Source of the DNA: a virus | Length of the DNA: 21,154 bases | IMG/VR virus record: IMGVR_UViG_3300025759_009321 | Location: 1 to 21,154 of that record | Strand: one strand, 5' to 3' | Part shown: piece by piece, positions 2,167 to 20,774 of the stretch | Layout: each line of letters starts with the position of its first letter | How positions within the stretch are numbered: the stretch's first letter is position 1 | The notes under the pieces: model-generated | The model's input: the letters and a program-made list of their open reading frames with translations, nothing else | Database searches by the model: none | Told to the model about the DNA's origin: nothing | Program-made: the position numbers and the translations under genes

Positions 2167-2852
2167 TGTTAGCGATAGTAGACACTGACAGCTGCATCTA
2201 TCAAGCAGCATGGCAGCAAGAGTCTGTCGAATCAGCGTTAAGTAATTATAAACATTTAATAAATCAGAACTGGATAACACCAGTCTGGGCTGATGAACAC
2301 GTTGCTTATTGCGGAGGTAAAGATAACTTTCGCCATAAGCTTTGCCCTAACTATAAGGCTAATCGTAAGGATCCACCGGATGATGCTAAGTTCTTTCGTC
2401 CACTAATGGAGCGTATTGTCGAGGAAGGCTTAGCTATACCCTCAAATGGTATGGAGGCTGATGACATGGTACGTATTAAAGCTACTGAGTGTGCATCACT
2501 CAACGTAGACTTTACTATAGTACATATCGATAAGGATCTTGATTGTATTCCGGGGAAACATTACAACCCTCATAAGGAGACCTTCTATGAGATTGATGTT
2601 GACGCAGCTGATCTGTTTTATTGGACTCAAATGCTGAAGGGTGATCCAACCGATAACCTTCCAGGGCTACCTAAGATCGGACCAAAGAAAGCAGAGAAGA
2701 TGCTTAAGGGTGTACCGCTAGGTAGACGTAAACAGAGAGTACTTGCTGCATACAGAGCTAAATACGGTCGAGTTGACTGGAAAGAAAAGCTATTGGAAAC
2801 AGCAAACGGTATTCATATTTTAAGGAGTCATAATGACTACTTCTCGATTTAA
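2166..2852 (+). CDS. 5'-3' exonuclease / flap endonuclease (T7 gp6-like)
   Basis: Structure-specific 5' nuclease of the FEN/PIN superfamily, 228 aa, expected to remove RNA primers and degrade DNA for recombination or nucleotide recycling. Metal-binding acidic residues are visible in order: D6 and D8 (VDTDSCIY), the EADD cluster (E98, D99, D100), D122 and D124 (HIDKDLD), D160 and D163. A helical-arch basic patch is NFRHKLCPNYKANR (54-67), with K63 and R67 conserved in type. The helix-3-turn-helix DNA-binding motif is LPGLPKIGPKKAEKML (165-180). An AAAGGA SD lies upstream and the ATG overlaps the previous stop. The last 20 bases overlap the next gene. The order polymerase, exonuclease, primase-helicase group resembles T7-like replication modules. 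Confidence 0.95.
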   Translation: MLAIVDTDSCIYQAAWQQESVESALSNYKHLINQNWITPVWADEHVAYCGGKDNFRHKLCPNYKANRKDPPDDAKFFRPLMERIVEEGLAIPSNGMEADDMVRIKATECASLNVDFTIVHIDKDLDCIPGKHYNPHKETFYEIDVDAADLFYWTQMLKGDPTDNLPGLPKIGPKKAEKMLKGVPLGRRKQRVLAAYRAKYGRVDWKEKLLETANGIHILRSHNDYFSI

Positions 2853-3468
2853 CAACCATGAACGTTGGCATAACGTACAGGTTGAACGTGTTACTCAGTT
2901 CGATAGTCACGACTGGTGTGGCATTATCACAAAAGAACACGGTGAAATACGGTGTAAGCGTAGAAATAAGAAACGCTTTAAACTAAAGAAAGGATTTAAA
3001 GGTCCAATCACTGTTTTCTTTTATCAAGGTAAGACACCAACGATTGCTGACGATCCACGTGGTCACATTGAAGTAGAAAGTCACTGGACTATTCTTAATC
3101 CAGAGGTCTTTGATGAATCACATCATGGCTTTCTTTATATCATCACGGATAAACGTAATGATAGACGCTATATCGGCGTTAAAACACTACATACTAGCTG
3201 GAAGGGCTATACTAGTTCTTCCTCAGAACTCAACGAAGAAATAACTAAAGCAGGTAAAGAGAACTTTACTTTCAATATCTTGTTCTCTTGCCCAATGAAA
3301 GGTGATCTTAGTTATATGGAAGCCTATATGATTATGATCACACATGCCCTATGCTCTGATGAGTGGTATAATAAATGGGTGCATGAAATTAGGTTTAAAC
3401 CCGCAATGAAGGATATGGAGAGACAAATTGAAATCGCCAAAGACTATTCGCAACCCCTACCACAATGA
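2833..3468 (+). CDS. GIY-YIG endonuclease-like protein
   Basis: Predicted endonuclease of the GIY-YIG superfamily, 211 aa. The signature is split as G99-F-L-Y102 and Y113-I-G115, followed by W123-K-G-Y126 and TSSSSEL, a glutamate in a helix (E163) and an asparagine (N180) at about the I-TevI E75 and N90 spacing. The I-TevI arginine and histidine after YVG are not visible; the YIGVK...W..Y...SS pattern instead resembles phage segE-like variants. The first 90 residues are Lys/Arg-rich and unrecognised, perhaps a DNA-binding part. AAGGAG at 2822-2827 is 5 bases before ATG 2833, and the gene starts inside the exonuclease frame, unlike a freshly inserted homing cassette. It could be a homing nuclease or a resident junction or host-DNA nuclease standing in for a T7 gp3-type enzyme, which is not seen here. 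Confidence 0.75.
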   Translation: MTTSRFNNHERWHNVQVERVTQFDSHDWCGIITKEHGEIRCKRRNKKRFKLKKGFKGPITVFFYQGKTPTIADDPRGHIEVESHWTILNPEVFDESHHGFLYIITDKRNDRRYIGVKTLHTSWKGYTSSSSELNEEITKAGKENFTFNILFSCPMKGDLSYMEAYMIMITHALCSDEWYNKWVHEIRFKPAMKDMERQIEIAKDYSQPLPQ

Positions 3469-6151: not shown

Positions 6152-6396
6152 AGACTTTACCCGATTATGTTGCTTGGGTCCGATGTAATCCTGAAGATCG
6201 CAGTCAAGTAGAGGAAATGTTTCCTAAAGATAAATACGAACTACTGATTGCAGTACAACCTAACTATGACCCTATAACTTGTTCACAACAAGTACTTTAC
6301 AATCCACCCGCTCCAACTTGGGGCTTAGATGTATGGAAGAAAGAGGACGATGGAAGATATACGGAACTATCTACTAGAGAGAATCCGCAGCGATAA
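6127..6396 (+). CDS. Hypothetical protein, 89 aa
   Basis: An ORF starting 25 bases before the deaminase stop and ending inside the RNA polymerase N-terminal region. The sequence (ETLPDYVAWVRCNPEDRSQV, PKDKYELLIAVQPNYDPITC) looks like a folded cytosolic domain with alternating beta and helical segments. AAAGG lies 12 bases before the ATG, a rather long spacing, so coupling to the deaminase is possible. No family is recognised and no motif stands out. It covers 6152-6328, where no other frame codes. Confidence 0.6.
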   Translation: MQIYYQRIETLPDYVAWVRCNPEDRSQVEEMFPKDKYELLIAVQPNYDPITCSQQVLYNPPAPTWGLDVWKKEDDGRYTELSTRENPQR

Positions 6397-8467
6397 CATA
6401 GGTGTTAAGCCTAGACGCAGCCTACAACTTATGCGTATGATCGACACCGATGGTGTTGATATGCTCGACTTCCTAATCGAAGATATGATTATCTACGGAC
6501 GTAAGTTTATCCAGCGTTGTTTTAAACGTAGTAAAGTAGAAGGTGAAACCCCTATTACACAAGCTTCAATGGCTATCGGCAAGTATATTGTTGAAGGCTG
6601 GGACAGTAACAACGTTAACTTTAGAGACCATGTTCGTGTTGGTGATCTTATCATTGAAGGCTTTGTTATGTGTGGCTACCTGACTATATCAGTAGGACAC
6701 ATGAAGAGCCGTAAGCCAGTTACAATCCATGCCACCGATAAATGGGGTGAGATGGAAGTAGTAGCTGGCAAAACCACTTGTATGAGTGCAGATCCAATCC
6801 CACCTATCAGTAAACTATTTCAGGATAATGGTAGGGCTGTGATTAAAACTTGGGATAAGTCTAAAGAACACCTGTTTATGAAGTATATTAATGCACCTTT
6901 TGTAAAGGCAATTGATAGACTACAGTCTACACGGTATCGAGTTAACACTGAAGTTAACCAAGCCATTAAAGAAAATATGTTTATGTTTGTTAAGAACGAA
7001 ACATTTGATGGTGAAGACAAAGAAGAAAACACTAAGCTGTATCAGCGTCAGGCTTCTAAGAATCGCGAGATAAAAGAAGTAATGGCTATTGCAGACAAGT
7101 GGCTAGGTGAGTCATTTAGTTTCTACATTGATGCAGATTATCGTGGGCGGTTATACTATAGCGAACCCTTCTTTAACTTTCAAGGTGCTGACATTGCAAG
7201 AGGACAACTCTTGTTTGATGAAGGTAAACGCTTTGATGAGTCTGCTAGCTTCTGGTTAGCTGTTCATACTGCTTGTTGTTTTAATCAGTCATATAGTATT
7301 GATGAAATTCCTGAGTGGACTACAGGTGACTACCGTTCTGTACTCGAAGAAGAAAACTTAGATACTATTTCAGTAGACAAAATGACTCTAGAGGATCGCG
7401 CTCAGTGGACTCAAGAGAACGTTGAAGTCATTATTGAGATGGGTGAAATGCGAATGATCGCAGAAGAGGCCGAGAAAGCTATCTCTTTCTTAGCATGTTG
7501 CATCGAGTGGTACCGCTACAGTACTACGGATGGGGACTACTATACTCGACTTCCAATCCCCATAGACGGGGCTAATAACGGCTGGCAACACCTAGGCGCT
7601 ATGTCTAAAGATTCACTAACAGGTAAGCTAGTTGGACTTGTTCCTACTGAAATCCAGAACGACTTCTATGTACAAATAGCTAAACGGCTATGCGACAGGA
7701 TGCCCGAATGGTTTGAAGAAAGACAAATCCCAATGAAGCATATCCGTAAGGGCATTGCCAAACGTGCAGCCATGACTCGTGCTTATAGCTGTGGTCAAAA
7801 GAAAATGTCTGAGTCTATGTATAGTGATTGCTATCAATACGGCTTCACTAATGACTACAACATCTCTACTTGGGATTGTGATGAGTTAAGTAGCCAGGTT
7901 ATTAGGGCTATCCAGGAAGTTTGCCCCGGTCCTTTAGACACCATGAAGTATCTGCAACGGTTAGCCGATCAGGAGATCACTAACTGGTATAAGCAGTATG
8001 GTACTGATAGAGGTAAGGGTATCGAGTGGACTACCCCTTCAGGTTTTCCTGTAATATACGAATGTTATCGCACTAGACCTGTTAAGGTAGACTGCTATGG
8101 CTTCAATACGCCTGACGGAGAGATCCGCTTTAAGCACGTTATTAGAGAGCATACAGACATCCCTGATCGTAGAGGCTTTATGTGCGGCATTAGCCCTAAC
8201 TTTGTACACAGTATGGATGCTAGTCATATGGCTCTTGTTATAGCAGACTGGGAAGGCGACTTCGCTGCTGTGCATGATTCGTATAGCGCTCACGCTGGTA
8301 ACGTAGAAGATCTTATGGTCAAGACAAGACAAAAGTTTGTTAGTATCTACGACAAAGAAAACTTCTATGATACAATACCCTTTGGCAAGGGCTTTGAAGG
8401 AGTAGTACCTACTATCGGTAAGCTATCTATTAAAGATGTTGCTGATTCTACTTACTTCTTTTGTTAA
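6329..8467 (+). CDS. T7-like single-subunit DNA-directed RNA polymerase
   Basis: Phage RNA polymerase, 712 aa, expected to transcribe middle or late phage genes from its own promoters. Signatures: DYRGR (270-274); motif A D413-G-x3-G-W-Q-H; motif B K474-x3-K478-R-x2-M482-x3-Y486; NFVHS with H627, matching T7 H784; motif C H649-D650. The C terminus ends in aromatic TYFFC, comparable to the FAFA foot of T7. It is about 170 residues shorter than T7 RNAP, nearly all missing before DYRGR, so the N-terminal promoter-melting domain is reduced or divergent. The T7 R627 position is Lys, though an Arg precedes it. The start is uncertain: ATG 6329 or ATG 6350, with the latter's SD only 2 bases away. Unusually, the gene lies last in the replication block, next to the terminator. 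Confidence 0.95.
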   Translation: MYGRKRTMEDIRNYLLERIRSDNIGVKPRRSLQLMRMIDTDGVDMLDFLIEDMIIYGRKFIQRCFKRSKVEGETPITQASMAIGKYIVEGWDSNNVNFRDHVRVGDLIIEGFVMCGYLTISVGHMKSRKPVTIHATDKWGEMEVVAGKTTCMSADPIPPISKLFQDNGRAVIKTWDKSKEHLFMKYINAPFVKAIDRLQSTRYRVNTEVNQAIKENMFMFVKNETFDGEDKEENTKLYQRQASKNREIKEVMAIADKWLGESFSFYIDADYRGRLYYSEPFFNFQGADIARGQLLFDEGKRFDESASFWLAVHTACCFNQSYSIDEIPEWTTGDYRSVLEEENLDTISVDKMTLEDRAQWTQENVEVIIEMGEMRMIAEEAEKAISFLACCIEWYRYSTTDGDYYTRLPIPIDGANNGWQHLGAMSKDSLTGKLVGLVPTEIQNDFYVQIAKRLCDRMPEWFEERQIPMKHIRKGIAKRAAMTRAYSCGQKKMSESMYSDCYQYGFTNDYNISTWDCDELSSQVIRAIQEVCPGPLDTMKYLQRLADQEITNWYKQYGTDRGKGIEWTTPSGFPVIYECYRTRPVKVDCYGFNTPDGEIRFKHVIREHTDIPDRRGFMCGISPNFVHSMDASHMALVIADWEGDFAAVHDSYSAHAGNVEDLMVKTRQKFVSIYDKENFYDTIPFGKGFEGVVPTIGKLSIKDVADSTYFFC

Positions 8468-8784: not shown

Positions 8785-11700
8785 CTAATTATATTGGTAA
8801 ATGAGTTCTGCTAACTCTTTCAGTGCATTACGTTTACCGATTTCAGAATTATTTTTCCAAGTATTAAATCGTGTATTTATTTTTTCATAGTTCTCAATTA
8901 CTTTAAATACGGTTAATAATTGTTTACCACTTAAGTTTGCCCCTTCTTCTGCCCAACCTGCCGTTTTAACTGCATTAATAAGCTGTTCTAGCTTTCCTTT
9001 TGGTGGGCCTCTTCGACCTGTAATTGGCGCTACTATATTCCCTTTCTTCTTTTTTAGCTGATCTAATTTTTGTAAAAGATAGGTATGCATTGAGCGATAT
9101 GAACTTTCTCCTGATACTAAATACGTTCCATTTGGATTGATAGTATTTTGAAATACAGATTTAGCTTCATTATAGCCATTAAGAATATTGTTTGCTAAGT
9201 TATAACGTTTATTTACTTCAACAAAGTTTTTATTAATCCTAGCATGGTATTGGTCTACGCTAGATGCGTCAGTAATAATAGCATCATGAACTGGCAACAT
9301 AAATAACGGTTCTTTACGCCCATCATTGATATCATTAATTGTTTTAGCCATAATAGCTGCATCAATCTGTTGTATAGAAATAACAGGCAATTGATTAGCA
9401 ACTTCTTGACCGAACCTAGAAGGAGGTGCCTTTTGCCATTCACTTTCTTCTTTATCCCTGTTTAATATCTTTTTACTTTTAGATCTAGCACTACCTGTTG
9501 GCTGGCTTACTTGTACCTGTTTAAATACAGTCCCTTGCGGAGTTGGAATAGGTACTACCCGGCCAGTATCTGTCCATTCAGTAGAACCTAAGAAAATATT
9601 AGTACCCAATGGTCCTTTATAAGTAGGAACTTTGCCCATCATTGACCATAACATTCCCATATCTTGCAATGTTTTTTGATGCGTCATTGGAATTGAATCA
9701 ATTAATGTTGATTTAATTAGGCTATTAAAGTCTTCAACCATTTGATTAACATCAGAATAATCAATTACATCACTAAGATTTCTAGCAGTTTCTAGAATTG
9801 TTCCGTATTTACCATTTTTAAAATCAATAACTGTATCATGGTTGAAAGAAGGGTCTTTACCATAAGACACTTCCATTAGCGGAGTACGTGATATTAAACG
9901 AGTAATTGCTTTCCGGTCTTCATGCTGATTGATTTCATCTAATACCGTATTCCAAAAATCTACTTTTTCTGAACTGTTAGCAAATGTTTTCTTAATTGCC
10001 ATAGGCATCATATCCATATAGCGTTTACGAATATCTCCCTCTGGGATAACAGTGCCTTCTTCGGTATTATAAATTGCACCTATCGAGGCTAGCAAGTCGA
10101 TATCACCTAATTGCATTGCTTGAATAGCAATACCATTTTGTTTACCATCATGCTGGGTTTGTGCTTGTGGTTCAAATACAACGATGCCTCTTGGATCTGC
10201 CTTAGCTTTCTTTTTTGCATCTACATAATTTGCAAAGTCAATTAATGATTGTAGTTTATAACCCCATTCTGCAGGATCTTGGAAGTCCTCTAAGAAATCG
10301 GGGCCAACTAACTCGTTTAATGCTTCAGTATTTGTAAAGTCACTATCTTTAATAGTCCGAAGTCTTGCGCCTGTCTTGTACCATTTCTGGTAAATAGGGT
10401 TGTTAGGATCATTAATAACTCGCTCAGTAGCTCGTTGTACTGCATTCCAAGTCATGTCTTCGGTTTTTACTGCAGCACCTGTTCTATCTGTAAGCCCTGT
10501 TTCGCTTGGCTTGAGTAGGTTCTTTCCAATAATATATTTCCAATTAGATAAAACCTTTGAGCTTGTATCTGCAGTACTGTTAAGGTTTAATGGAAACCGT
10601 TTAGCACTACCTACAAAATTTCTTACTAGTTTACTATCTTGATAGTTAAGAATTGTGTTACGAACAAAATAACGACCTACAGACGAAGCATGAAACCATT
10701 TATTATAAAATACTTTACCATCTTTAGCATCACCGTCTAGCATTGTCTGGAAAATCTTTTTAGCTTCCCTACGAACTACTCTGTCTGCTTGTTCAGTTGC
10801 CATAGCAGTATCGCCATTGTGTGTTTTAAGCGCACGGCTATAAGCTTTAGCCCATTTCTTCTCATCAAGCCCAATCATTGCTGCCCAAGGTTCTGTAGAA
10901 AAGAACCCACGGTCTGATTGTCCAGCTAATCCAGTAATTGTTTTACCATCTTCTGCTACTTGAATTACAGAGGCAACCACCTGCATAGCAAAGTTATAAC
11001 GGTCTTCTACAATGCGTAGTGGCATACGCCCAAGGTTATTTTTAGTTTTGTTTTCAATAACAAGATTTTCATCTAGCTTAGATTTTTGAGATACGGGTCC
11101 TGCCTTACGCCCTTTAGTGCGTTCTAATCCTGGGACAGATTGTCCTTCAATAGTTGGTACTGAGGAAACATCAATACGATTTTCAGGTTGGATATCCGAA
11201 AGAAGCTCTTTGGCGTTATTGAAAAAGTTTTCTGCACCCTCTGACATACGGTAAAACTCACTTTCACCGTCAGTATGGTAATCAAGAAAACCAAGTTCTT
11301 TAACTGCATTCCACATAAGGGTGTCTAGATAACTAGCAGTTTCTGGATCTAAAGTAACACCAGCATCACCGTAGCCGGTAACAGTTTGTCCTTCTCTAGT
11401 AGGTGCCTGTAATAGTTTACCAATGACGCCTCTAGCTAGGCTACCTCTAGTGTAGTCTGTATTTAGTATTTCGCCTTGCACTTTATTTGTTTCATCTCTT
11501 TCAAATAAAGAAACATTATCTGATTGTGAAGCGTTGTAATTACCTGTAGCACGATCATCTCGTTTATTTATATGATCTTGAATATTTTCTAGTAACTGGA
11601 TTGTAAGCGCATTAGCAACTTTAGGTTGTAATTGATTAGTTGTAGAATCAAGTAAGTTATTCTTAATAAGAACATTTTTTACACTTTGCGCAGTATCAGA

Positions 11701-12267
11701 GAAATCATCTAGAGTAGGTCTGAAAGTTTCATCTAGCTTTTCTCTAAGCTCATACCCTGTATTAACAACGTTAGTTAAAGCATCGCGGCTTGATGTAGCA
11801 TTCTCAAACCTATTTTTAAGCTGATCAGGACTACGATAATCAAAGAATTCAGTATCCGATTCTTTAGCATAGATTGGTGCAGTCTCATACTGTGCTGCTT
11901 GTTCTGCTTCAACAGCACGTTGTGCTACTGCAGGATCAAACGTTGTTTGTCCTTCAATATCAGTAATACCTCGTTGAGCAACCTGACGGGCAACAGGGTC
12001 TATACCACCTGCTGTGCTTACCAACGATTCTGCTTGTTCCATTTGGCTAGGCATCGGAGTTGGTGTTGGAACAACGCCCTCTGTCTCCGGAGTTGGTGCA
12101 GGTGTTAACAACCCTAACTGCTCAGTAGCGGTAGGCGCAATTGTTGGTGTTGTTTCTGCTTCTTGTGTAATCTTACGCTTTTCTTGCTCCATTGCAATAG
12201 CTTGTGGCGATTGCGCTGGTGCTTTTACTCGTCTAGCGTTAGCTAGAGTATTACTAAACTTACCCAT
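8785..12267 (-). CDS. Putative virion-associated single-subunit RNA polymerase (N4 vRNAP-like)
   Basis: A 1160-aa protein encoded among ejection proteins. It carries the single-subunit RNA polymerase signatures in order: SSVGRYFV (R532), corresponding to the T/DxxGR motif; motif A D707-G-x3-G-I; motif B R790-x3-R794-x3-M798-x3-Y802-G; an LPVISIQQIDA segment where T7 has its NFVHSQD element; motif C VH994-D995. Spacings (GR to A 175, A to B 87, B to C 201 residues, then a 165-residue tail) lie near those of T7 and N4 enzymes as I recall them. Residues 40-75 are a Pro/Thr linker and the N-terminal 400 residues are unassigned. By analogy with N4 it would be packaged, injected and used for early transcription. 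Oddity: the motif B lysine is Arg (CGT, 9886-9888). ATG 12267 has GGAG 9 bases upstream; an earlier TTG at 12282 overlaps this SD. Confidence 0.75.
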   Translation of the reverse strand: MGKFSNTLANARRVKAPAQSPQAIAMEQEKRKITQEAETTPTIAPTATEQLGLLTPAPTPETEGVVPTPTPMPSQMEQAESLVSTAGGIDPVARQVAQRGITDIEGQTTFDPAVAQRAVEAEQAAQYETAPIYAKESDTEFFDYRSPDQLKNRFENATSSRDALTNVVNTGYELREKLDETFRPTLDDFSDTAQSVKNVLIKNNLLDSTTNQLQPKVANALTIQLLENIQDHINKRDDRATGNYNASQSDNVSLFERDETNKVQGEILNTDYTRGSLARGVIGKLLQAPTREGQTVTGYGDAGVTLDPETASYLDTLMWNAVKELGFLDYHTDGESEFYRMSEGAENFFNNAKELLSDIQPENRIDVSSVPTIEGQSVPGLERTKGRKAGPVSQKSKLDENLVIENKTKNNLGRMPLRIVEDRYNFAMQVVASVIQVAEDGKTITGLAGQSDRGFFSTEPWAAMIGLDEKKWAKAYSRALKTHNGDTAMATEQADRVVRREAKKIFQTMLDGDAKDGKVFYNKWFHASSVGRYFVRNTILNYQDSKLVRNFVGSAKRFPLNLNSTADTSSKVLSNWKYIIGKNLLKPSETGLTDRTGAAVKTEDMTWNAVQRATERVINDPNNPIYQKWYKTGARLRTIKDSDFTNTEALNELVGPDFLEDFQDPAEWGYKLQSLIDFANYVDAKKKAKADPRGIVVFEPQAQTQHDGKQNGIAIQAMQLGDIDLLASIGAIYNTEEGTVIPEGDIRKRYMDMMPMAIKKTFANSSEKVDFWNTVLDEINQHEDRKAITRLISRTPLMEVSYGKDPSFNHDTVIDFKNGKYGTILETARNLSDVIDYSDVNQMVEDFNSLIKSTLIDSIPMTHQKTLQDMGMLWSMMGKVPTYKGPLGTNIFLGSTEWTDTGRVVPIPTPQGTVFKQVQVSQPTGSARSKSKKILNRDKEESEWQKAPPSRFGQEVANQLPVISIQQIDAAIMAKTINDINDGRKEPLFMLPVHDAIITDASSVDQYHARINKNFVEVNKRYNLANNILNGYNEAKSVFQNTINPNGTYLVSGESSYRSMHTYLLQKLDQLKKKKGNIVAPITGRRGPPKGKLEQLINAVKTAGWAEEGANLSGKQLLTVFKVIENYEKINTRFNTWKNNSEIGKRNALKELAELIYQYN

Positions 12268-12278
12268 TATAATTTTCT

Positions 12279-12300
12279 CCAAGGGAGGCCAGCCCCTTAG
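12279..12300 (-). repeat. Intergenic hairpin, copy 2 of a repeated element
   Basis: On the minus strand AAGGGG, a six-base loop CTGGCC and TCCCTT form a hairpin, extendable by two pairs, in the 50-base gap between the 1406-aa and 1160-aa genes. It ends directly at the SD (GGAG) of the RNA polymerase-like gene. It is nearly identical in sequence (about 15 of 18 positions) to the hairpin at 16560-16580. No U-tract follows, so it is not a standard terminator; an RNase III site, RNA stabiliser or translation control element are possible. Confidence 0.6.
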
Positions 12301-12317: not shown

Positions 12318-15300
12318 TTATCTTAACAATGCTCTGATTATATCATCGGAATCAGGCAACTCTACCCCTTTAAGGGGGTTTTCTAAGTGTGCTACATCAG
12401 ACAAAGAACGTCTTAATGAAGTTACCGGGCCAATTCCAGGTAGTATCTTACCAAAGTTTGATACTGCTCTTTCTGTTTCTCCTGATAACGCTTGTCCTGT
12501 TGCGGTTAATACTGTTTCAATATTTCTAGCTGAAGGTCCAGCCTCACCAAGAATAGTATTAAACATCCATTCAAGACCGTTACCTCGTTGTGGATAAAGT
12601 GGGTGTACCATATCTACAACTCGTTCATACTGACCAATAACACCAGAAGAATATAATGCTCTTTGTACATAACCTACTTCATCAAGATAAGGGCTTGACT
12701 GTCCAAACTTAATTAAGTCTTTAATGTACTGAGAAGCTCCTCCTAGTGCCATCATCATTATTACTAACGCAAACATATCATACTTTACTTTAGGATTACC
12801 TTTTGCCAGTTGATCACGCCAAAGCTTAGGAATAACATTAGCAGTAAATGTACTAATGAAACCGTTAAACTGAGTGAATAACTGATAATGTGGATCCTGG
12901 AAAAACAAAGGACGATTAGCAGCTTGAGGGTTTTGAATACGCTCATTTACAAAACGGTAAATAGCAGTTTGTATTTGCTCATTTACTTCTTCTTGTATTT
13001 TTTGCGCTCGCTGTAGTAACTCTTCACCCTTTAGCTTTTCACGACGTGCTAGCTTTCTTGTAGCTGTTTCTCTTTGAGTAGGACTACGAATAAAGGCATC
13101 GGTATCCCCTTCTACTGAGCGATTGTCAGTAATATCAAATAGTGTATCTCTGTAGATCTCATCGGTTTCACTAAAGTAATCATATAGCTTTTGTACATCA
13201 ATACCAAGGTCAGATAAGTCTAAGAAAGTTCTCATTTCAACTTCATTAAACCTATCAAGGTTAAAGGTACCATCGCTATTCTTAGGTGCAAACTCTAATC
13301 GATTAAAGCCAGATTTAACTGTGTCTACTGCAAATGCAGCATTCATTCTACGCTGGAATTGAGTAAACTGCTTAATCCCTACTGCTCTAAAGAAAGCTTC
13401 ATGTGCTTTAATAAACGAAACATCACGCTCACCTGTAGCAAGCCTATCAACGACAGTGTTTTGGTCTTCAGATAGTCCTGATTGCTCCAACTGCTTCTTA
13501 GTTATCTCAACTTCTGCTTTGAGAGCGTTATCCCAGGCACCTGCAACTTGTTGAATGAATCGGGTATTCGCTTGTTTAAACTCATCGCTATCTTTTACTT
13601 TAAAGTAAACCATAGCTGTTTCAGGTATAGAAGAAATAGTAGAAAGAGGTAGCCCTGCAAAGATAGACCACGATGTTAAGTAGTTATTTACTGCTGCCCA
13701 TCGAGGGTCTTGGATACGCCTAAAGTTACCATGTGAACTATCAATAATTGCTTTAGTATACCATGCAAACTTTTGAATTTCTTCTTTGTTAAGTACACCC
13801 TCTGTTTCTAATTGTTTAAATAAGCGAGATAACTTTGAACCACCTTCACCGAAGTATTTAGTTGTTGAATTATATTTTGCAACTTCATTTTGTGTTTTGT
13901 TTAATGATTCAAATAGATTATCATTAGACCAATTATTAAATCCTTTAGCATCTGTAATATTTGTTGATGCAGGATTAAAGGACCAAGGTCTCCACTTAAC
14001 GCCACCTACTAAGGAAAAGTCTCCTTGTGCGCCATGTGCTCCCCTATTAGCGATGTTTTGATAGATAGATTCTACATCAAGCGAAGGGTCTACACTCTTT
14101 AACCACTTTTTAAATCCGGCAGGATTCTTTCTAACCTTAGTATGATCAAAGCCTTGATGTCTCCACCAATAATCAGAACGATAAGGTATTGTTTTTCCTT
14201 TATTTGATTTAGAATACTCTTCATTAAAGGCTGAATGAGAAGCATCATAAGAGCTTTTAATTTGTTTAGCTGCAGCATATAGTTTACTAGCTTCGGTAAA
14301 GCTATCTACTTTTAATGCTTCGAATGGTACAACACCATTAGGGAATTTTTTAGCCTTAGCATAGTAAGCACGAATATCTGCATCAGTGCTTAAGCCTAAT
14401 GCATTTAGTTCGTCTACAATTATTTGATCACGATTACCTTTAATATAAGCATCTGCTAAATCAAAAGCGCCTTGTTGTTGTAAGACCATCAACTCGTAGT
14501 TTTCAAATCCACCTGATCTTCCAAACTCTCTAAGTTTTTTAGAAATATCAATTGCATTTTTTGAATCAATATTTTTATAACCAAAAGATTTAGCAATTTC
14601 TTTTTCATCTACAAAGGTTTTTAAGTCAGAGATTAGCTGATCACTATACTGTTTAAAGTTTTGACCAGCATGATACACACCCGTAGTCATTTGACCAATG
14701 CGAGAAAAAATATCTAAACCTATTTTACTTTGTACAAGCTTATTAAAGTCTACAGCGGAAGACTCTGCTGCTTTAAATAGCTTTCCAAATCCACTAGTTA
14801 TATTTTCAATATAATCATATAACTCATCATTATTTCTAAAGAAGTTTTTAATACCACGTTTTTCATTTTCATGGACTTGAGCTTCGTTACTAAAATAATT
14901 TATATCTGAATCATAATCATAGTTATCTCTTTCAGCGTCTCTGTCGTCAGCATCAATATTAGCAGTAACCGTAGACGGCTTAGGTCGATTAAGATTAGTG
15001 TCACCTGATTGTGCATCTCTAATTCTAGCTTGCTCTATAATACGATAACGATCTGTACTTGCTTTAGCTAGATCTGAACGTGTAAGTTGATTTTGTCCTT
15101 GAGAATAAATATTTCCAGCAGCCGAAAAGCCTGAACCAAGTACACCACCTGCTAAACCAGCATTAATAAAGCGATTAACTAGCTCATCTTGAGTGTACTC
15201 TTTCTCTGACATTATGCCAGCAGTAGCTACTTGAATGCCATCTTGAATTATCTCAGTACCGCCTTCCTTTAATGAGCCTAATGCTCCAGCCTTAAGAACT

Positions 15301-16538
15301 CCAGCTCCAGTAAACTTAGCAATGTCAGATGGTCTCATCCGCAGTAAGCTGCGTGCCATTGATGCCTGTTCTTCTTTAGCAGTCTTAAGAACAACGCTCT
15401 TAGCAACTTCTCTACTAACATTATTTTTCTTAGCATATGAACTGACTAATCGATTAATTCCTTTTTGAGAAAGAACATCAGCAGGACTAATTAAAGCTTT
15501 CATACCAAGCCGTTCAACCATAGCGGCTGCGACACCTGCAGCAGTAGCTGCTAAAAACTGTGGAATTCCTTTTTCGCCTTCCATCTCATTCCAAGTATGA
15601 CCTGCATAAATGGTAGCAATAGGAGCAAGCGCAGTTGCACCGCCAACAGCTGGCCCTGCTATTAAAGTGGTAGGTACAGCCGCAGCTGCAGCACCGAAGG
15701 TTGCTACAAGATAAGGTGCCGCCATAACAGCGTTATTCATTGCCCAAGAAAAACCATCCCATACGTTATCAACATCTTGATAGTCTAAGATAATTTCAGG
15801 TGCATCTGCCATACGGAGTCTAGCATTACGAACACCAGCTTCACCAAGATTTTGAATCATGTCAATATCGGTAACTTGACCAATACCTTCTAGGTATCCC
15901 CATAGTCCTTCCTTAACGCCATCCCAACCTTGATCCCAAGCAGTTTCTACATTTCCTGTAAAGCCAATTGCTTTGTTATCGAGTGTGCGTTCGACATCTC
16001 TGTATCGAACACCCGAATGTATTTCAGGATCATAATATTTTTCATTAATAGCCTTGTCTTTAAATACAATACCTGATTGGGCAATCTGATTTCTTATATC
16101 ATCGCCTAGATCGTTTAACGGATCTTCTTCCTTGCCAAAAGCTGCTTCATAAAGCTCTCGCTCGCGTTTAGCAACAATTGCTTCTTCAGAAGTATATGGT
16201 GTAACTTCAGTTATTCCAGATGAAATAAGTTTACTTTCTAAGCTTTCACCCTTATCATTACGAAGATTAATAATCTGCCTATCGTAATCATCGTATTCAC
16301 CAGTATATTCAATATCATTAAAGCCACCATCGCGAATAACTTTAGCTATAGCTTTAGCTTGAGCTTCTCCACCAATTTGACCCTGTTTAAATTCAATACC
16401 ACCTTCTGTCTCAATTATTTTGTCTACTTCTCTAGCATTAACATTGCCAATACGAAGCTTATTGCCATTAGTATCAGCAGCTGTATCGCCATCTAATAAC
16501 AAAAAAGAGTTATTCTTTTTGTCACGAAAAGTTTCCAT
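12318..16538 (-). CDS. Large ejection (internal virion) protein with N-terminal staphylococcal-nuclease-like domain
   Basis: A 1406-aa virion protein, probably ejected into the host envelope with the genome. Residues 11-120 match the SNase (thermonuclease) pattern: LDGDT (D16, D18), LRIGNVNAREV (R29, E37), GGEAQAKAIAKVI, then DDYDRQI with R87, ending in SKLISSGI. Relative to staphylococcal nuclease the D21, R35, E43 and R87 equivalents are present, but the D40 equivalent is Asn (N34). Then come Gly/Ala-rich hydrophobic segments near 267-312, 326-345 and 407-475, including EGGTEIIQDGIQVAT, suited to membrane insertion, a long helical middle, and another hydrophobic stretch near the C terminus (MFALVIMMMALGG). 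AAGGAG lies 7 bases before the ATG. Neighbours and size fit a T7 gp15/gp16-type channel protein. The family is otherwise unrecognised. Confidence 0.85.
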   Translation of the reverse strand: METFRDKKNNSFLLLDGDTAADTNGNKLRIGNVNAREVDKIIETEGGIEFKQGQIGGEAQAKAIAKVIRDGGFNDIEYTGEYDDYDRQIINLRNDKGESLESKLISSGITEVTPYTSEEAIVAKRERELYEAAFGKEEDPLNDLGDDIRNQIAQSGIVFKDKAINEKYYDPEIHSGVRYRDVERTLDNKAIGFTGNVETAWDQGWDGVKEGLWGYLEGIGQVTDIDMIQNLGEAGVRNARLRMADAPEIILDYQDVDNVWDGFSWAMNNAVMAAPYLVATFGAAAAAVPTTLIAGPAVGGATALAPIATIYAGHTWNEMEGEKGIPQFLAATAAGVAAAMVERLGMKALISPADVLSQKGINRLVSSYAKKNNVSREVAKSVVLKTAKEEQASMARSLLRMRPSDIAKFTGAGVLKAGALGSLKEGGTEIIQDGIQVATAGIMSEKEYTQDELVNRFINAGLAGGVLGSGFSAAGNIYSQGQNQLTRSDLAKASTDRYRIIEQARIRDAQSGDTNLNRPKPSTVTANIDADDRDAERDNYDYDSDINYFSNEAQVHENEKRGIKNFFRNNDELYDYIENITSGFGKLFKAAESSAVDFNKLVQSKIGLDIFSRIGQMTTGVYHAGQNFKQYSDQLISDLKTFVDEKEIAKSFGYKNIDSKNAIDISKKLREFGRSGGFENYELMVLQQQGAFDLADAYIKGNRDQIIVDELNALGLSTDADIRAYYAKAKKFPNGVVPFEALKVDSFTEASKLYAAAKQIKSSYDASHSAFNEEYSKSNKGKTIPYRSDYWWRHQGFDHTKVRKNPAGFKKWLKSVDPSLDVESIYQNIANRGAHGAQGDFSLVGGVKWRPWSFNPASTNITDAKGFNNWSNDNLFESLNKTQNEVAKYNSTTKYFGEGGSKLSRLFKQLETEGVLNKEEIQKFAWYTKAIIDSSHGNFRRIQDPRWAAVNNYLTSWSIFAGLPLSTISSIPETAMVYFKVKDSDEFKQANTRFIQQVAGAWDNALKAEVEITKKQLEQSGLSEDQNTVVDRLATGERDVSFIKAHEAFFRAVGIKQFTQFQRRMNAAFAVDTVKSGFNRLEFAPKNSDGTFNLDRFNEVEMRTFLDLSDLGIDVQKLYDYFSETDEIYRDTLFDITDNRSVEGDTDAFIRSPTQRETATRKLARREKLKGEELLQRAQKIQEEVNEQIQTAIYRFVNERIQNPQAANRPLFFQDPHYQLFTQFNGFISTFTANVIPKLWRDQLAKGNPKVKYDMFALVIMMMALGGASQYIKDLIKFGQSSPYLDEVGYVQRALYSSGVIGQYERVVDMVHPLYPQRGNGLEWMFNTILGEAGPSARNIETVLTATGQALSGETERAVSNFGKILPGIGPVTSLRRSLSDVAHLENPLKGVELPDSDDIIRALLR

Positions 16539-16550
16539 ATAATACTCCTT

Positions 16551-16580
16551 AAAAGAAAAGCAAGGAGGCTAGCTCCTTAC
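16551..16580 (-). terminator. Intergenic hairpin with U-tract (copy 1 of repeated element)
   Basis: On the minus strand GTAAGGAG, loop CTAGC and CTCCTTGC form an 8-pair stem with one G-U wobble, followed directly by TTTTCTTTT. This is a Rho-independent terminator shape lying between the 934-aa and 1406-aa genes, 6 bases or so before the SD of the latter. Since the same operon continues, it probably acts as a partial terminator, setting lower expression of the two largest downstream genes, or as an RNA-processing site. It shares sequence with the hairpin at 12279-12300. Confidence 0.65.
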
Positions 16581-16589
16581 TTTCATTGA

Positions 16590-19394
16590 TTATTTAAAGG
16601 CTTCTGTTATCATCCATTGAATTATTGGATCATAGCCATCTGCTTTAAATGCGTCTTTATTTTTAACTTCTTTCCAGTCAGCTTTAGCATCAGTCCAAAG
16701 TTGACGGTATACTTTAACATAAGTTTCACGATCAAGATTACCATCAGAATTAATAGCTGCATTAGCTGCTGCATTAGAAAGTGTCTTTTCAAGAATATCT
16801 AAATTTTCAGGATTGGTATTTTTAACATCGTTATAACTAAAGACACCACCTGTTTTAAGCTTAATTATACGCTTGTTATAATAACCTTCAATACTTGTTG
16901 GCTTATCAAATTCGCTAGGATTTTGCATATGCTTTTTATAGTCTTGCAGAAAATCTTTTTGTGCTAAAGTTATCTCATCCGATAATTTTACAGCCTTTTT
17001 ATTGTTCATTCTGAAAAGATCTCTATTTGAAACATATAAAGCACGTGCTTCATTTGCTAATGTTTCAGTAGAAAAGTCTAATTTAGGACTATCTTTATCT
17101 ATTGCTTTATTTAACTCATCAACTTGATTACCTAATCTTTTTTGAAATTCATCTCTGATTTCATTAAGATCATGCAGTTTAGGATTAACTACTTCGAATC
17201 GAGAAGAAGTCGCATCTACAAAGCCATCACCAGATTTTACAACTAGCCTTGCATCTTTACCAGATCCCATTTTATAAACAGGTACTTCTGTTCCAGTAAA
17301 TCGATCAAAAGTAGTTCCTGATTGTCCTGTAATATTCATTGCAGAACTGCTAGTTGGCTTTTCAATAAGATCATTACGATCCCCTGTTTTAAGATAATTA
17401 TCAAGTGATTCTTTAGTGTATGCTTCCATGAAGTCTTTATCACGAACATCTTTTTGGCGCTGAGTATACTCTGCATCAATACGTTTAACATATTGTTTAG
17501 CAGAATAACCAAGAGAAGCTGAATGATCATAACCCAATGCTCTAGAACCAGCATACATAACTGCCATACGTGCAAGCTCTTTAGGATCAAACAACTCTCC
17601 AAACATATCTTTAAATCCTTGCATAATAGACTCAGCAAATGTAGGATCTGATTTTAAAGTTTTATTGCCTTGATCAGTGATTTCATCTTCATCTTCTTTA
17701 ACTTGGTCAGCTGCTTCTGCATTTTGTTTGGCAGCAGCTTGAACTTTAGCTAACGCTGCTGATGCACGATCAGATGTTTTAGTAGCATCTTCCGGCTTTG
17801 GTGGTGCATCATCAGTTGCTGGAACAGTTGAGACCTCAAAGTCTAATATTTCATCTGCTTCTTTTTGACGATCCGAAATAACTTTTGCTTCTGCTGAATC
17901 AAGTTTAGCAATATCTTTTTCAACTCCAGCTTTAGTTGCTTTAGCATCCTCTAAATCTTTTTTGGCCTTTTTACCTTTTTCAACTGTTTGCGGAGTTACA
18001 CCACCTGAAGACGATATTTCAATTTCAAGTTGTGCTTGAGCAGCCGCTAATTCAGCCTCAGCTTTAGCAATTTCTTCTTCTGCTGCAGTAACTTTGTTTC
18101 GAAGTCCTTGCTTACCAAGGCTTTCTGATTTAGGCAGCTTTGATGTTGGAACCCCATATCGATCTGTAGTTTGTGGACTTATATTTGACATTCGACTAGG
18201 TGGTATCGAATAAAGTTCATTATAGGCTTCATCTCCAATATCGCCACCGGCTTCATTTAAAGAAGGAACTTCCATAGTCTTTAAAATAGCTTCATCCCGA
18301 ATACGCTGGTCTTCACTACCTGCAATTTGAGTAGGTACACGAGGTCCAGTTACTGGATCTGAGTACTGACTAAAATCAATTGCTGTAGGAGGAGGTACAG
18401 GTGCATCTGGCTCTGGTACTGGCACTTCTGCTGGTGCCAACGGAGTCATTGCGTTTAATTGATTATCATCAAGATAAACTTCACCTTCTGGTGTCATAAC
18501 AAATTCACCCATGTCATCTGAGTAAACCTTTTGATCTCCAATAGTCCCTATTACTGTTCCTGGTACTGTACTAACCTGTCTACGAGTAACACCAAACTTA
18601 TCTGGATCAGACATATTATCCATTATTTTACCAGCATAGGCTTGTCCACGTGGTCCAAGCGCTTCTGTTCCAGCTTTAGCTTTACGGACATTACTTGCAC
18701 CCGAATGGTAAGCAGTAAGTACTTCTTCAGGAGTAAAGTCAGGATTAGCGCTAGCAATACCTGTTAAATAATTCCTAGCAAATTCTCTAGACTTAACAGG
18801 ATCACGAATATCTTCTATTGCAAGAGGAGGAACATTCATCCCAGGCTGTTGCGCTGTTGCTGGCATAATCTGATAAAGACCTTGTGCTCCCACTTCAGAG
18901 GTAGCCATAGGATCACCTGAAGATTCGACCATTTTAAGGCTGTCAAGTACTTCATCGGTTAACCAAGAAGGAACTTTACTACCTACAGCAGAATACATAG
19001 GACCACCGTCTCTATCACCAAGCCGTTGACCAAGACTATTTAGCATCCCATCATAACGAGGTACTTCCATTCCACCAGCAGCATAAGTAGGAATAGGTCC
19101 ACCTTGTGCCTGTTGAACTGCACGACCTTGTTCATTCATTTCATCAATCTTTTCTTGATTACCAGGAAGACGAGATGCTTCAGCATTAACAACGTTCTCT
19201 CCAGGGGTTAACCATGCGGGGACTGTATCAGTACCTTTAGGTTCTCCAGGGTGATTACTAGTGTCTGCACCATTATAACCATCAGCCATGTCAGGGATCA
19301 TCATCATCATCGGGATAGAAGCATCGGGTTCAAAGAATTCAAAAGAAAACATATTGCCATAACGGTCTTTCTGACTAAGGCTTTTTAGTTTCAT
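16590..19394 (-). CDS. Ejection protein with soluble lytic transglycosylase (SLT) domain
   Basis: A 934-aa virion protein that would cut peptidoglycan during genome entry, like T7 gp16. The SLT domain spans about residues 143-260: catalytic E157 in MVESSGDP, GAQGLYQIMPAT (169-180), and TAYHSGASNV (227-236). Before it, GTDTVPAWLTPGENVV (54-69) is a motif known from phage tape-measure and internal proteins. After it come a Pro-rich linker (APAEVPVPEPDAPVPPP), a long Ala/Glu/Lys coiled-coil region (about 430-640), and a helical C-terminal third. AAAGGAG ends 5 bases before the ATG, with a one-base gap to the upstream gene. The SLT call is secure; the remainder is unassigned. Confidence 0.9.
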   Translation of the reverse strand: MKLKSLSQKDRYGNMFSFEFFEPDASIPMMMMIPDMADGYNGADTSNHPGEPKGTDTVPAWLTPGENVVNAEASRLPGNQEKIDEMNEQGRAVQQAQGGPIPTYAAGGMEVPRYDGMLNSLGQRLGDRDGGPMYSAVGSKVPSWLTDEVLDSLKMVESSGDPMATSEVGAQGLYQIMPATAQQPGMNVPPLAIEDIRDPVKSREFARNYLTGIASANPDFTPEEVLTAYHSGASNVRKAKAGTEALGPRGQAYAGKIMDNMSDPDKFGVTRRQVSTVPGTVIGTIGDQKVYSDDMGEFVMTPEGEVYLDDNQLNAMTPLAPAEVPVPEPDAPVPPPTAIDFSQYSDPVTGPRVPTQIAGSEDQRIRDEAILKTMEVPSLNEAGGDIGDEAYNELYSIPPSRMSNISPQTTDRYGVPTSKLPKSESLGKQGLRNKVTAAEEEIAKAEAELAAAQAQLEIEISSSGGVTPQTVEKGKKAKKDLEDAKATKAGVEKDIAKLDSAEAKVISDRQKEADEILDFEVSTVPATDDAPPKPEDATKTSDRASAALAKVQAAAKQNAEAADQVKEDEDEITDQGNKTLKSDPTFAESIMQGFKDMFGELFDPKELARMAVMYAGSRALGYDHSASLGYSAKQYVKRIDAEYTQRQKDVRDKDFMEAYTKESLDNYLKTGDRNDLIEKPTSSSAMNITGQSGTTFDRFTGTEVPVYKMGSGKDARLVVKSGDGFVDATSSRFEVVNPKLHDLNEIRDEFQKRLGNQVDELNKAIDKDSPKLDFSTETLANEARALYVSNRDLFRMNNKKAVKLSDEITLAQKDFLQDYKKHMQNPSEFDKPTSIEGYYNKRIIKLKTGGVFSYNDVKNTNPENLDILEKTLSNAAANAAINSDGNLDRETYVKVYRQLWTDAKADWKEVKNKDAFKADGYDPIIQWMITEAFK

Positions 19395-19395
19395 G

Positions 19396-20127
19396 TTATA
19401 CTCCTTTGCTTATCGGTCCACCGTAAGACAATTTGTAGGTCTCTCCACCTTTTGATTTATATTCTACTTTAGCTAATGGTCCAGCCATACCGCCTTTGTT
19501 AAGCATTGAAGCTAACCCCATAGGGATCCCTTCTTCTTTTGCTTTATCCATAAGCATAGGCATTAGCCCACCCATGCTAGCGTGTAATGGCCCAACATAA
19601 CCCCCCTTATTAAACAAACCAAAGGCTTTACCAGCAAGCATTGCAGCACCAATGTAAGGTACTGCTGTACCTAGCGCACCCATAGCAGCACCCATGCCAC
19701 CCGTAGTTGCACCAGAAGCTAACGCATTAGTTGTTGCTTGTTTTGCTAGCTCCGCACCACCCATTTTTGCTAATTCAGCGCCAGCCATTCCAGAAGCCTC
19801 CGCAACTAACGGAGCCGCACTAGAACCAGATCCCATAATAGCTTGAGCTTGGCCTGGAGATACTCCTTGCCCTGCAAGATTAATTATTTCTTTCATTTGG
19901 GTACCCGAAGGTGCAGCTACTGAAGGCGCTAACATAGAAGAAACACCTTCTGTTAGTTTTTCTTCCCCATAATCAAGACCTTTTGTCATAGCTCTATTAG
20001 CTGCCATATCAGTCATTTGTTGTGCAGCTGATTTTTCTTGAGGTGCTATTGGTTGAGGAGTTGGTCTATAGAGTGGTCCTTGTCTAGGGTCTTCTTCTCT
20101 TTGTAGCTTAGCTAATTGAACAGCCAT
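19396..20127 (-). CDS. Gly/Ala-rich internal virion protein (gp14-like by position)
   Basis: A 243-aa protein, with a polar Pro/Gln N terminus (LYRPTPQPIAPQE), a long Ala/Gly/Met-rich middle that could insert in membranes (TTGGMGAAMGALGTAVPYIG), and a C terminus with two copies of NKGGxxGPL (NKGGYVGPL, NKGGMAGPL). Its size and its place just upstream of the SLT ejection protein resemble T7 gp14, the smallest ejection protein that forms an outer-membrane pore; no sequence homology is claimed. GGAGGTGG precedes the ATG, which overlaps the upstream stop by one base, showing coupling. Confidence 0.75.
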   Translation of the reverse strand: MAVQLAKLQREEDPRQGPLYRPTPQPIAPQEKSAAQQMTDMAANRAMTKGLDYGEEKLTEGVSSMLAPSVAAPSGTQMKEIINLAGQGVSPGQAQAIMGSGSSAAPLVAEASGMAGAELAKMGGAELAKQATTNALASGATTGGMGAAMGALGTAVPYIGAAMLAGKAFGLFNKGGYVGPLHASMGGLMPMLMDKAKEEGIPMGLASMLNKGGMAGPLAKVEYKSKGGETYKLSYGGPISKGV

Positions 20128-20774
20128 TACTTACCACCTCCGCTTTGAGTAGATGTTTGTTGTTGTGGTGCATTACCAAGATATCCGAAGTAACGCGAAG
20201 CTACCGTGTGAGGTGCATCAAGCCGTTGTTGCTCATACTGTTGCTTAGTAGTTCCTACTTCACCAAGACCAGTAATGCCACGCTCCATTGTTGCTTGACG
20301 ATCTTTTTGTAACTCTAATGAACGATCCGCAACAGCTCCCAACATAGCCTTTTCACCACGAGCAGAACCAAGTCCACCACCAGCAGCTGCCATACCAGAA
20401 GCACTACCCATAATATTTTCTAAGTCACGTTTACGGGCTGCGCCAGTGTCGTATACTCCAGTGCCAGCCATAGCATCTTCAGCTGCTTTCTTCTGTGCTT
20501 CCAATGCTTGTAGCTGCTCAGGAGTCATTTTTGCAACTACAGCGTCTGGACCTCCAGCAACATCTGCTTCGTATTTTCCTGTTACATCAGCTAACACTTT
20601 TTCAAGGTATGGTTTAAACTCAGGATCAATACCACTTACGGTTGTTGTGGTTTTAGAACCACCCTTATTACAAATATGATTATTGAAATGCCTATGTAGA
20701 AACTTTGGAGCGTCCTCCGGTACTTCTACTCGCATATCAAAGATTCCTAGATTTGGATTCGAATCTTCGAACAT
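20127..20774 (-). CDS. Virion-type protein, 215 aa, function unknown
   Basis: A 215-aa protein directly upstream of the ejection genes. CNKGGSKTTTT (35-45) precedes a helical Ala/Glu/Lys region (GIDPEFKPYLEKVLADVTGK, then MTPEQLQALEAQKKAAEDA), a Gly-rich stretch (GMAAAGGGLGSARGEK) and a Gln/Ser/Gly-rich tail. CAGGAGAATTAA precedes ATG 20774, supporting this start. Similar KGGSKTTT-type N termini occur on small structural proteins in podovirus ejection clusters, so a connector or internal-virion role is plausible, but this is from context. No enzyme motif is visible. Confidence 0.7.
   Translation of the reverse strand: MFEDSNPNLGIFDMRVEVPEDAPKFLHRHFNNHICNKGGSKTTTTVSGIDPEFKPYLEKVLADVTGKYEADVAGGPDAVVAKMTPEQLQALEAQKKAAEDAMAGTGVYDTGAARKRDLENIMGSASGMAAAGGGLGSARGEKAMLGAVADRSLELQKDRQATMERGITGLGEVGTTKQQYEQQRLDAPHTVASRYFGYLGNAPQQQTSTQSGGGK

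Follow-up and report, generated by a model that had tools for sequence, protein, structure and literature searches.

The window, an IMG/VR virus record of 21,154 bases, encodes a 1406-aa protein whose front part is almost certainly a divergent homologue of staphylococcal nuclease (SNase), and the protein itself is comparable in layout to the inner ejection protein gp16 of phage T7. Among podovirus ejection proteins, the known enzyme domains are peptidoglycan hydrolases; an RNA polymerase is also known from N4-like phages. Both the enzyme family and the kind of ejection protein are known, but their pairing was not found described: the open-access PubMed Central papers that were searched contained no report of a nuclease on a podovirus ejection protein.

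Gene Organization of the Window

In the right half of the window, the minus strand carried a structural/ejection module. The left half, on the plus strand, encoded DNA polymerase, exonuclease, a GIY-YIG protein, primase/helicase, dCMP deaminase, and a T7-like RNA polymerase. The three large genes of the module lay on one strand in the order of lytic transglycosylase (SLT) protein, SNase protein, and RNA polymerase (RNAP)-like protein (Table 1). The 1406-aa ORF started with the ATG at 16538-16536 on the minus strand, and a wrong start codon was ruled out by the ribosome-binding site AAGGAG at this ATG.

An AAGGAG-loop-CTCCTT hairpin was observed at 16562-16578, in the intergenic stretch that separates the SLT gene from the SNase gene. 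A T-rich stretch (GCTTTTCTTTT) came next on the minus strand, ahead of the true AAGGAG ribosome-binding site. This hairpin may be a weak terminator or an RNA control element. In the left half, the gene at 2833-3468 (plus strand) received 'NAD synthetase' (phrog_447) as its best PHROG label, and gp22 of phage CRP-7 is likewise annotated as NAD synthetase. This label looks wrong, because Pfam assigned the window gene to the SegE GIY-YIG endonuclease (69 bits).

Table 1. Features of the ejection module in the window.
Feature	Position	Strand	Evidence
Small proteins of the structural/ejection module	20127-20774 and 19396-20127	minus
Preceding ejection-module protein, 934 aa, SLT domain at residues 151-245	16590-19394	minus	PF01464, E 3.6e-17
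Ribosome-binding site AAGGAG preceding the ATG of the 1406-aa ORF	16545-16550	minus	sequence
Probable gp16-like inner ejection protein, 1406 aa, with N-terminal SNase, internal hydrophobic segment and conserved C-terminal region	12318-16538	minus	phrog_6958; full-length relatives
SNase-like nuclease domain, residues 11-120	16179-16508	minus	family-profile match, E 9.7e-8; 60-sequence conservation
D16, SNase D19 equivalent	16491-16493	minus	60/60
D18, SNase D21 equivalent (calcium ligand)	16485-16487	minus	60/60
R29, SNase R35 equivalent	16452-16454	minus	60/60
N34, at the SNase D40 position (calcium ligand)	16437-16439	minus	D 43, N 10, E 3, S 3, Q 1 of 60
E37, SNase E43 equivalent (general base)	16428-16430	minus	60/60
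R87, SNase R87 equivalent	16278-16280	minus	60/60
Hydrophobic segment, residues 270-288	15675-15731	minus	hydropathy scan; place matches the T7 gp16 membrane region between N and C domains (PMC8954989)
Most conserved C-terminal region, residues 1180-1300, common to SNase-less podovirus structural proteins	12639-13001	minus
Following ejection-module protein, 1165 aa, candidate single-subunit RNAP with motifs A, B, and C (D712, R799, Y807, D1000)	8785-12282	minus	PF00940, phrog_414, phrog_2206, motif conservation

Identification of the SNase Domain

When the SNase domain was searched as one sequence, nothing was returned from Pfam, PHROGs, or PDB; the 140 N-terminal residues of the window protein alone gave no Pfam match and no SNase among the PDB chains. 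A family profile was therefore needed, and 22 loci with relatives were taken from IMG/VR for the first family set. A profile of 17 N-termini (A1) matched SNase among the structures at E = 3.8e-5, and a profile of 21 members including CRP-7 and phiA008 (A4) matched it at E = 9.7e-8. All 60 matches listed in the A4 search were SNase/thermonuclease, and the profile was aligned with SNase residues 14-135, nearly the whole SNase chain. The curated cut-off of PF00565 (21 bits) was exceeded by the phiA008 protein (29.9 bits) and by relative L010 (24.0 bits); relative L008 reached 21.5 bits in a DNA search of its record and 17.7 bits as a whole protein. At E 0.1, PF00565 was matched by five of the 21 family members. 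In the A1 alignment, window residues D16, D18, T19, R29, N34, E37, D83, and R87 corresponded to SNase D19, D21, T22, R35, D40, E43, D83, and R87, respectively. A chance resemblance to SNase was ruled out by the profile E-value together with the residue invariance described below.

The initial annotation had recognized SNase in residues 11-120 of the 1406-aa protein and proposed a profile or structure comparison with SNase as the check. The family profile matched SNase structures and relatives passed the Pfam cut-off, which upheld the identification; its coordinates were right, and the strand, which it left unstated, is the minus strand. Compared with the SNase/thermonuclease family (PF00565; PDB 4h7b and 1ey0), the phage domains shared the equivalents of D19, D21, R35, E43, and R87. 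They differed in that the D40 position was relaxed and that the SNase formed the N-terminal part of a large phage fusion protein, which was 1287-2050 aa long among intact members. The window domain was also highly divergent, with 14-73% identity to the other phage members.

Active Site Conservation and Selection

Conservation was assessed in 60 non-redundant domains (<90% identity). The mean column identity of the domain was ~33%, and only six of 140 positions were invariant (D16, D18, R29, E37, R87, and G97). Five of these six were SNase active-site positions, for which the chance probability was ~9e-8 given an active-site set of six that we defined ourselves. The T22 equivalent was kept in 59 and the D83 equivalent in 53 of the 60 domains. 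In close pairs, dN/dS in the SNase domain ranged from 0.035 to 0.20, and purifying selection on the domain was supported. A degenerate SNase fold was ruled out by the invariance of the catalytic residues. Invariant catalytic residues and low dN/dS favored a working nuclease over a fold kept for DNA binding only, and the domain is likely to be an active nuclease.

D18, R29, E37, and R87, together with Asn at the D40 position, were all located where the initial annotation had placed them, and the loss of the remaining active-site residues across the family, which it had named as evidence against an SNase, was not seen. It had also pointed to N34 as a residue to follow in relatives. The D40 position held Asp in most of them and Asn, Glu, Ser, or Gln in the others (Table 1). 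In a tree built from the protein outside the SNase domain, Asn at this position was spread over more than one branch; L011, a near sister, had Asp. Because several residues occur here and Asn arises on more than one branch, N34 was regarded as a tolerated variant and not as decay or loss of the site.

S. aureus nuclease is a basic protein. In contrast, the phage SNase domain was acidic, with a net charge of -10 in the window and a family median of -6. This acidity would fit a low affinity for DNA, and it argued against a DNA-anchoring role.

Probable Ejection Protein and Its Topology

The 1406-aa protein matched phrog_6958, a virion structural protein, at E 4.8e-15 (7.6e-25 for relative L015), and the matches of its C-terminal half also included structural proteins from KPP25 and from LUZ24-like phages. 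The mean identity of residues 1201-1300 was 75% in the near clade. An RNAP-like homologue was located downstream of the SNase protein in all 78 relatives with a readable downstream gene. Two features that mark a gp16-like inner ejection protein were found, namely the very large size combined with a position inside the ejection/structural module, and the homology to known virion proteins. Synteny, topology, and homology to structural proteins indicated that this is very probably a virion/ejection protein, and the name 'ejection protein' used in the initial annotation was well supported by the synteny and the homology.

After ejection of T7 gp16, residues 1-156 with the transglycosylase are located in the periplasm, and the rest comprises the tape, putative membrane regions, and then a C-terminal domain in the cytoplasm (PMC8954989). 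The window protein shared with T7 gp16 the very large size, the place in the ejection module, the N-terminal enzyme domain, and a hydrophobic segment between the N and C parts. However, its N-terminal enzyme was a nuclease, and the transglycosylase was found on the neighboring 934-aa protein. No sequence homology between the 1406-aa protein and T7 gp16 was detected. By analogy with T7 gp16, the periplasm is more likely than the cytoplasm to be the first site of action, and the chances that the SNase domain acts in the periplasm are about evenly balanced.

The Neighboring RNAP-Like Protein

The 1165-aa protein that followed the SNase protein contained HDGKQNGIAIQAM (motif A, D712), SRTPLMEVSYG (motif B, Y807), and VHDAI (motif C, D1000). 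Among 88 sequences, D712, K/R799, and D1000 were conserved in all and Y807 in 87. It matched PF00940 (E 0.0013), phrog_414, and phrog_2206; the last, labeled 'virion RNA polymerase' in PHROG, matched six of seven members with a best E of 1.3e-9. The profile-profile comparison with T7 RNAP was weak (E 4.6e-4 for one pair, probability 33%), no RNAP was found for the protein in PDB, and hhalign gave no alignment with the N4 virion RNA polymerase. These PHROG and Pfam matches and the conserved motifs made the 1165-aa protein a candidate for a compact virion RNA polymerase; it was kept as a candidate because searches of PDB and profile-profile comparisons gave weak or negative results. The window also encoded an ordinary T7-like RNA polymerase at 6329-8467, and gp33 was the RNAP-like counterpart in CRP-7.

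In N4, a 3500-aa virion RNA polymerase is encoded in the ejection cassette, and its 'mini-vRNAP' corresponds to residues 998-2103 (PMC12633501). The RNAP-like gene of the window was likewise located in the ejection module, but the protein was about one third of the size, near that of the 'mini-vRNAP'. With family lengths of 1146-1317 aa, these proteins fell outside the N4 type, which is ~3500 aa long and has a membrane domain at its N-terminus and a large domain at its C-terminus.

Distribution of the SNase Module

A second IMG/VR scan with the conserved C-terminal region as query detected 156 relatives, and 80 of them were fetched. The SNase domain was present in 64 of the 65 relatives with a readable N-terminus: in 61 it was identified by HMM, in L093 and L100 by eye, and in L116 it was encoded in a separate frame. 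The protein of L083, the remaining relative, began near the contig end. True loss of the domain in some relatives was ruled out, as these cases were accounted for by the separate frame, the contig end, and the two domains missed by the HMM. Genome contigs scanned with the A5 profile contained no relative, and an IMG/VR scan with the phiA008 protein as query returned none.

Two cultured phages carried the fusion. Roseophage CRP-7 (MK613349) had the same three-gene module in gp33-gp35, with the SNase at the front of gp34, and these proteins were annotated only as hypothetical. It differed from the window in the C-terminal region, where the identity was ~24%, and in gp35 (L002 6848-10519), which had a pesticin/lysozyme-like domain (PF16754, 27.5 bits) in the place of the SLT. 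The peptidoglycan-cutting domain thus appeared to have been swapped between lineages while the SNase stayed. The second, distant fusion was the 2050-aa hypothetical protein of Aeromonas phage phiA008 (pA_gene0066; L063 718-6870), in which a canonical SNase at residues 28-112 was placed at the front and the same phrog_6958 C-terminal region at the end. However, this protein was much longer, and its SNase was 14% identical to that of the window; it is possibly a separate capture.

Structural proteins of KPP25, the LUZ24-like HSN4, JB8, VP506, and Phriendly shared the homologous C-terminal region and had no SNase domain. Because podoviruses with the same C-terminal region lack it, the SNase appears, from these comparisons, to be a module that was added to a common ejection-protein chassis and kept in one large lineage, possibly having been acquired more than once. 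In the 2009-aa structural protein of KPP25 (ORF088; L060/L066), a repeat (LDARAARAPDTIDPSLPVAQQ...) was observed near the N-terminus, where the others have the SNase. A nearby KPP25 gene is annotated as 'photosystem II D1', a doubtful-looking label.

Proposed Action at Entry and Alternatives

We propose that the 1406-aa protein would be stored in the core of the virion, where its nuclease would be kept in check, would exit unfolded via the portal and tail, and would refold in the host envelope. The SNase domain would then be exposed to the Ca2+-rich periplasm, and the C-terminal domain would cross the inner membrane as in T7 gp16. The phage's own DNA would be shielded inside the ejection tunnel, and the nuclease would destroy nucleic acid outside it, most likely DNA brought in by co-infecting or superinfecting phages, or else nucleic acid of the host at the point of entry. 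With the phage genome inside the tunnel, an attack on exposed nucleic acid in the envelope would be favored. A catalytically competent, Ca2+-dependent, sugar-nonspecific SNase-type nuclease on a gp16-like ejection protein that acts in this way was the explanation to which we leaned, with modest confidence; the SNase homology, the catalytic invariance, the purifying selection, and the near-universal presence in the lineage supported it. Rival phage DNA would be the likeliest target, yet this was the weakest step, and a main role in keeping out competing DNA can be suggested only tentatively.

Seawater contains ~10 mM Ca2+, and an active SNase beside packaged DNA under these conditions counts against this explanation, as self-damage would be expected. 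Asn in place of the calcium-binding Asp at residue 34, and the lack of a significant match for the window sequence by itself, also weigh against it. When SNase was engineered into T4 heads, the packaged DNA was cut to small fragments (PMC7697877). The two cases would be alike in that SNase is enclosed with DNA in a phage head; the T4 heads, however, were a laboratory construct in which the packaged DNA was cut. By this comparison, some restraint on the natural domain is required inside the virion, which might be achieved by its folding state, by burial in the core, or by low affinity.

It is also conceivable, though rather unlikely, that the nuclease acts in the host cytoplasm on entry, where it would nick or degrade the host chromosome or RNA and so shut down host functions, supply nucleotide pools, or knock out a defence. 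SNase enzymes require calcium far beyond the usual cytoplasmic levels, and this need speaks against a cytoplasmic site even though the catalytic residues are conserved and co-delivery with a candidate virion RNA polymerase would fit an early takeover of the cytoplasm. Injected proteins with anti-defence roles do exist, such as Ip1-3 of T4 (PMC12373910). However, the N-terminus would be periplasmic if the T7 gp16 topology applied, and a nonspecific nuclease in the cytoplasm would endanger the phage genome as well.

It is improbable that the SNase fold is non-catalytic and has a structural or DNA-guiding task within the ejection machine. Nucleic-acid binding is common among OB folds, and the relaxed D40 position would agree with such a role, which the initial annotation had offered as a genome-guiding option. 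That option was disfavored, as D19 and four other catalytic residues were invariant in 60 diverse domains amid drift, an invariance that binding alone does not need, and as the domain was acidic; moreover, podoviruses with the same C-terminal region function without SNase. This last point also weighs against action on the phage's own DNA or on packaging by-products, by which the nuclease would trim ends or free the last stretch of DNA from the portal at ejection or packaging. The protein would adjoin the DNA end in the core, and in P22 the space of the ejection proteins is accessible to DNA (PMC8402733). Nevertheless, SNase has no sequence specificity, and this role was considered very improbable.

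With the periplasmic nuclease on the ejection protein as the preferred reading, a broader picture can be drawn, although it is doubtful as a whole: a marine podovirus lineage would fire a peptidoglycan hydrolase, a virion-silent and Ca2+-triggered periplasmic nuclease against rival phages, and a compact virion RNA polymerase ahead of its genome. The lineage is common, as indicated by its 156 IMG/VR relatives, and CRP-7-type phages are reported to be widely distributed in the ocean (PMC6918029). The pairing raises two questions, namely how a nonspecific nuclease can be carried through calcium-rich seawater while the genome of the phage stays uncut, and what purpose the nuclease serves at entry. 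Since CRP-7 is cultured, both questions are testable.
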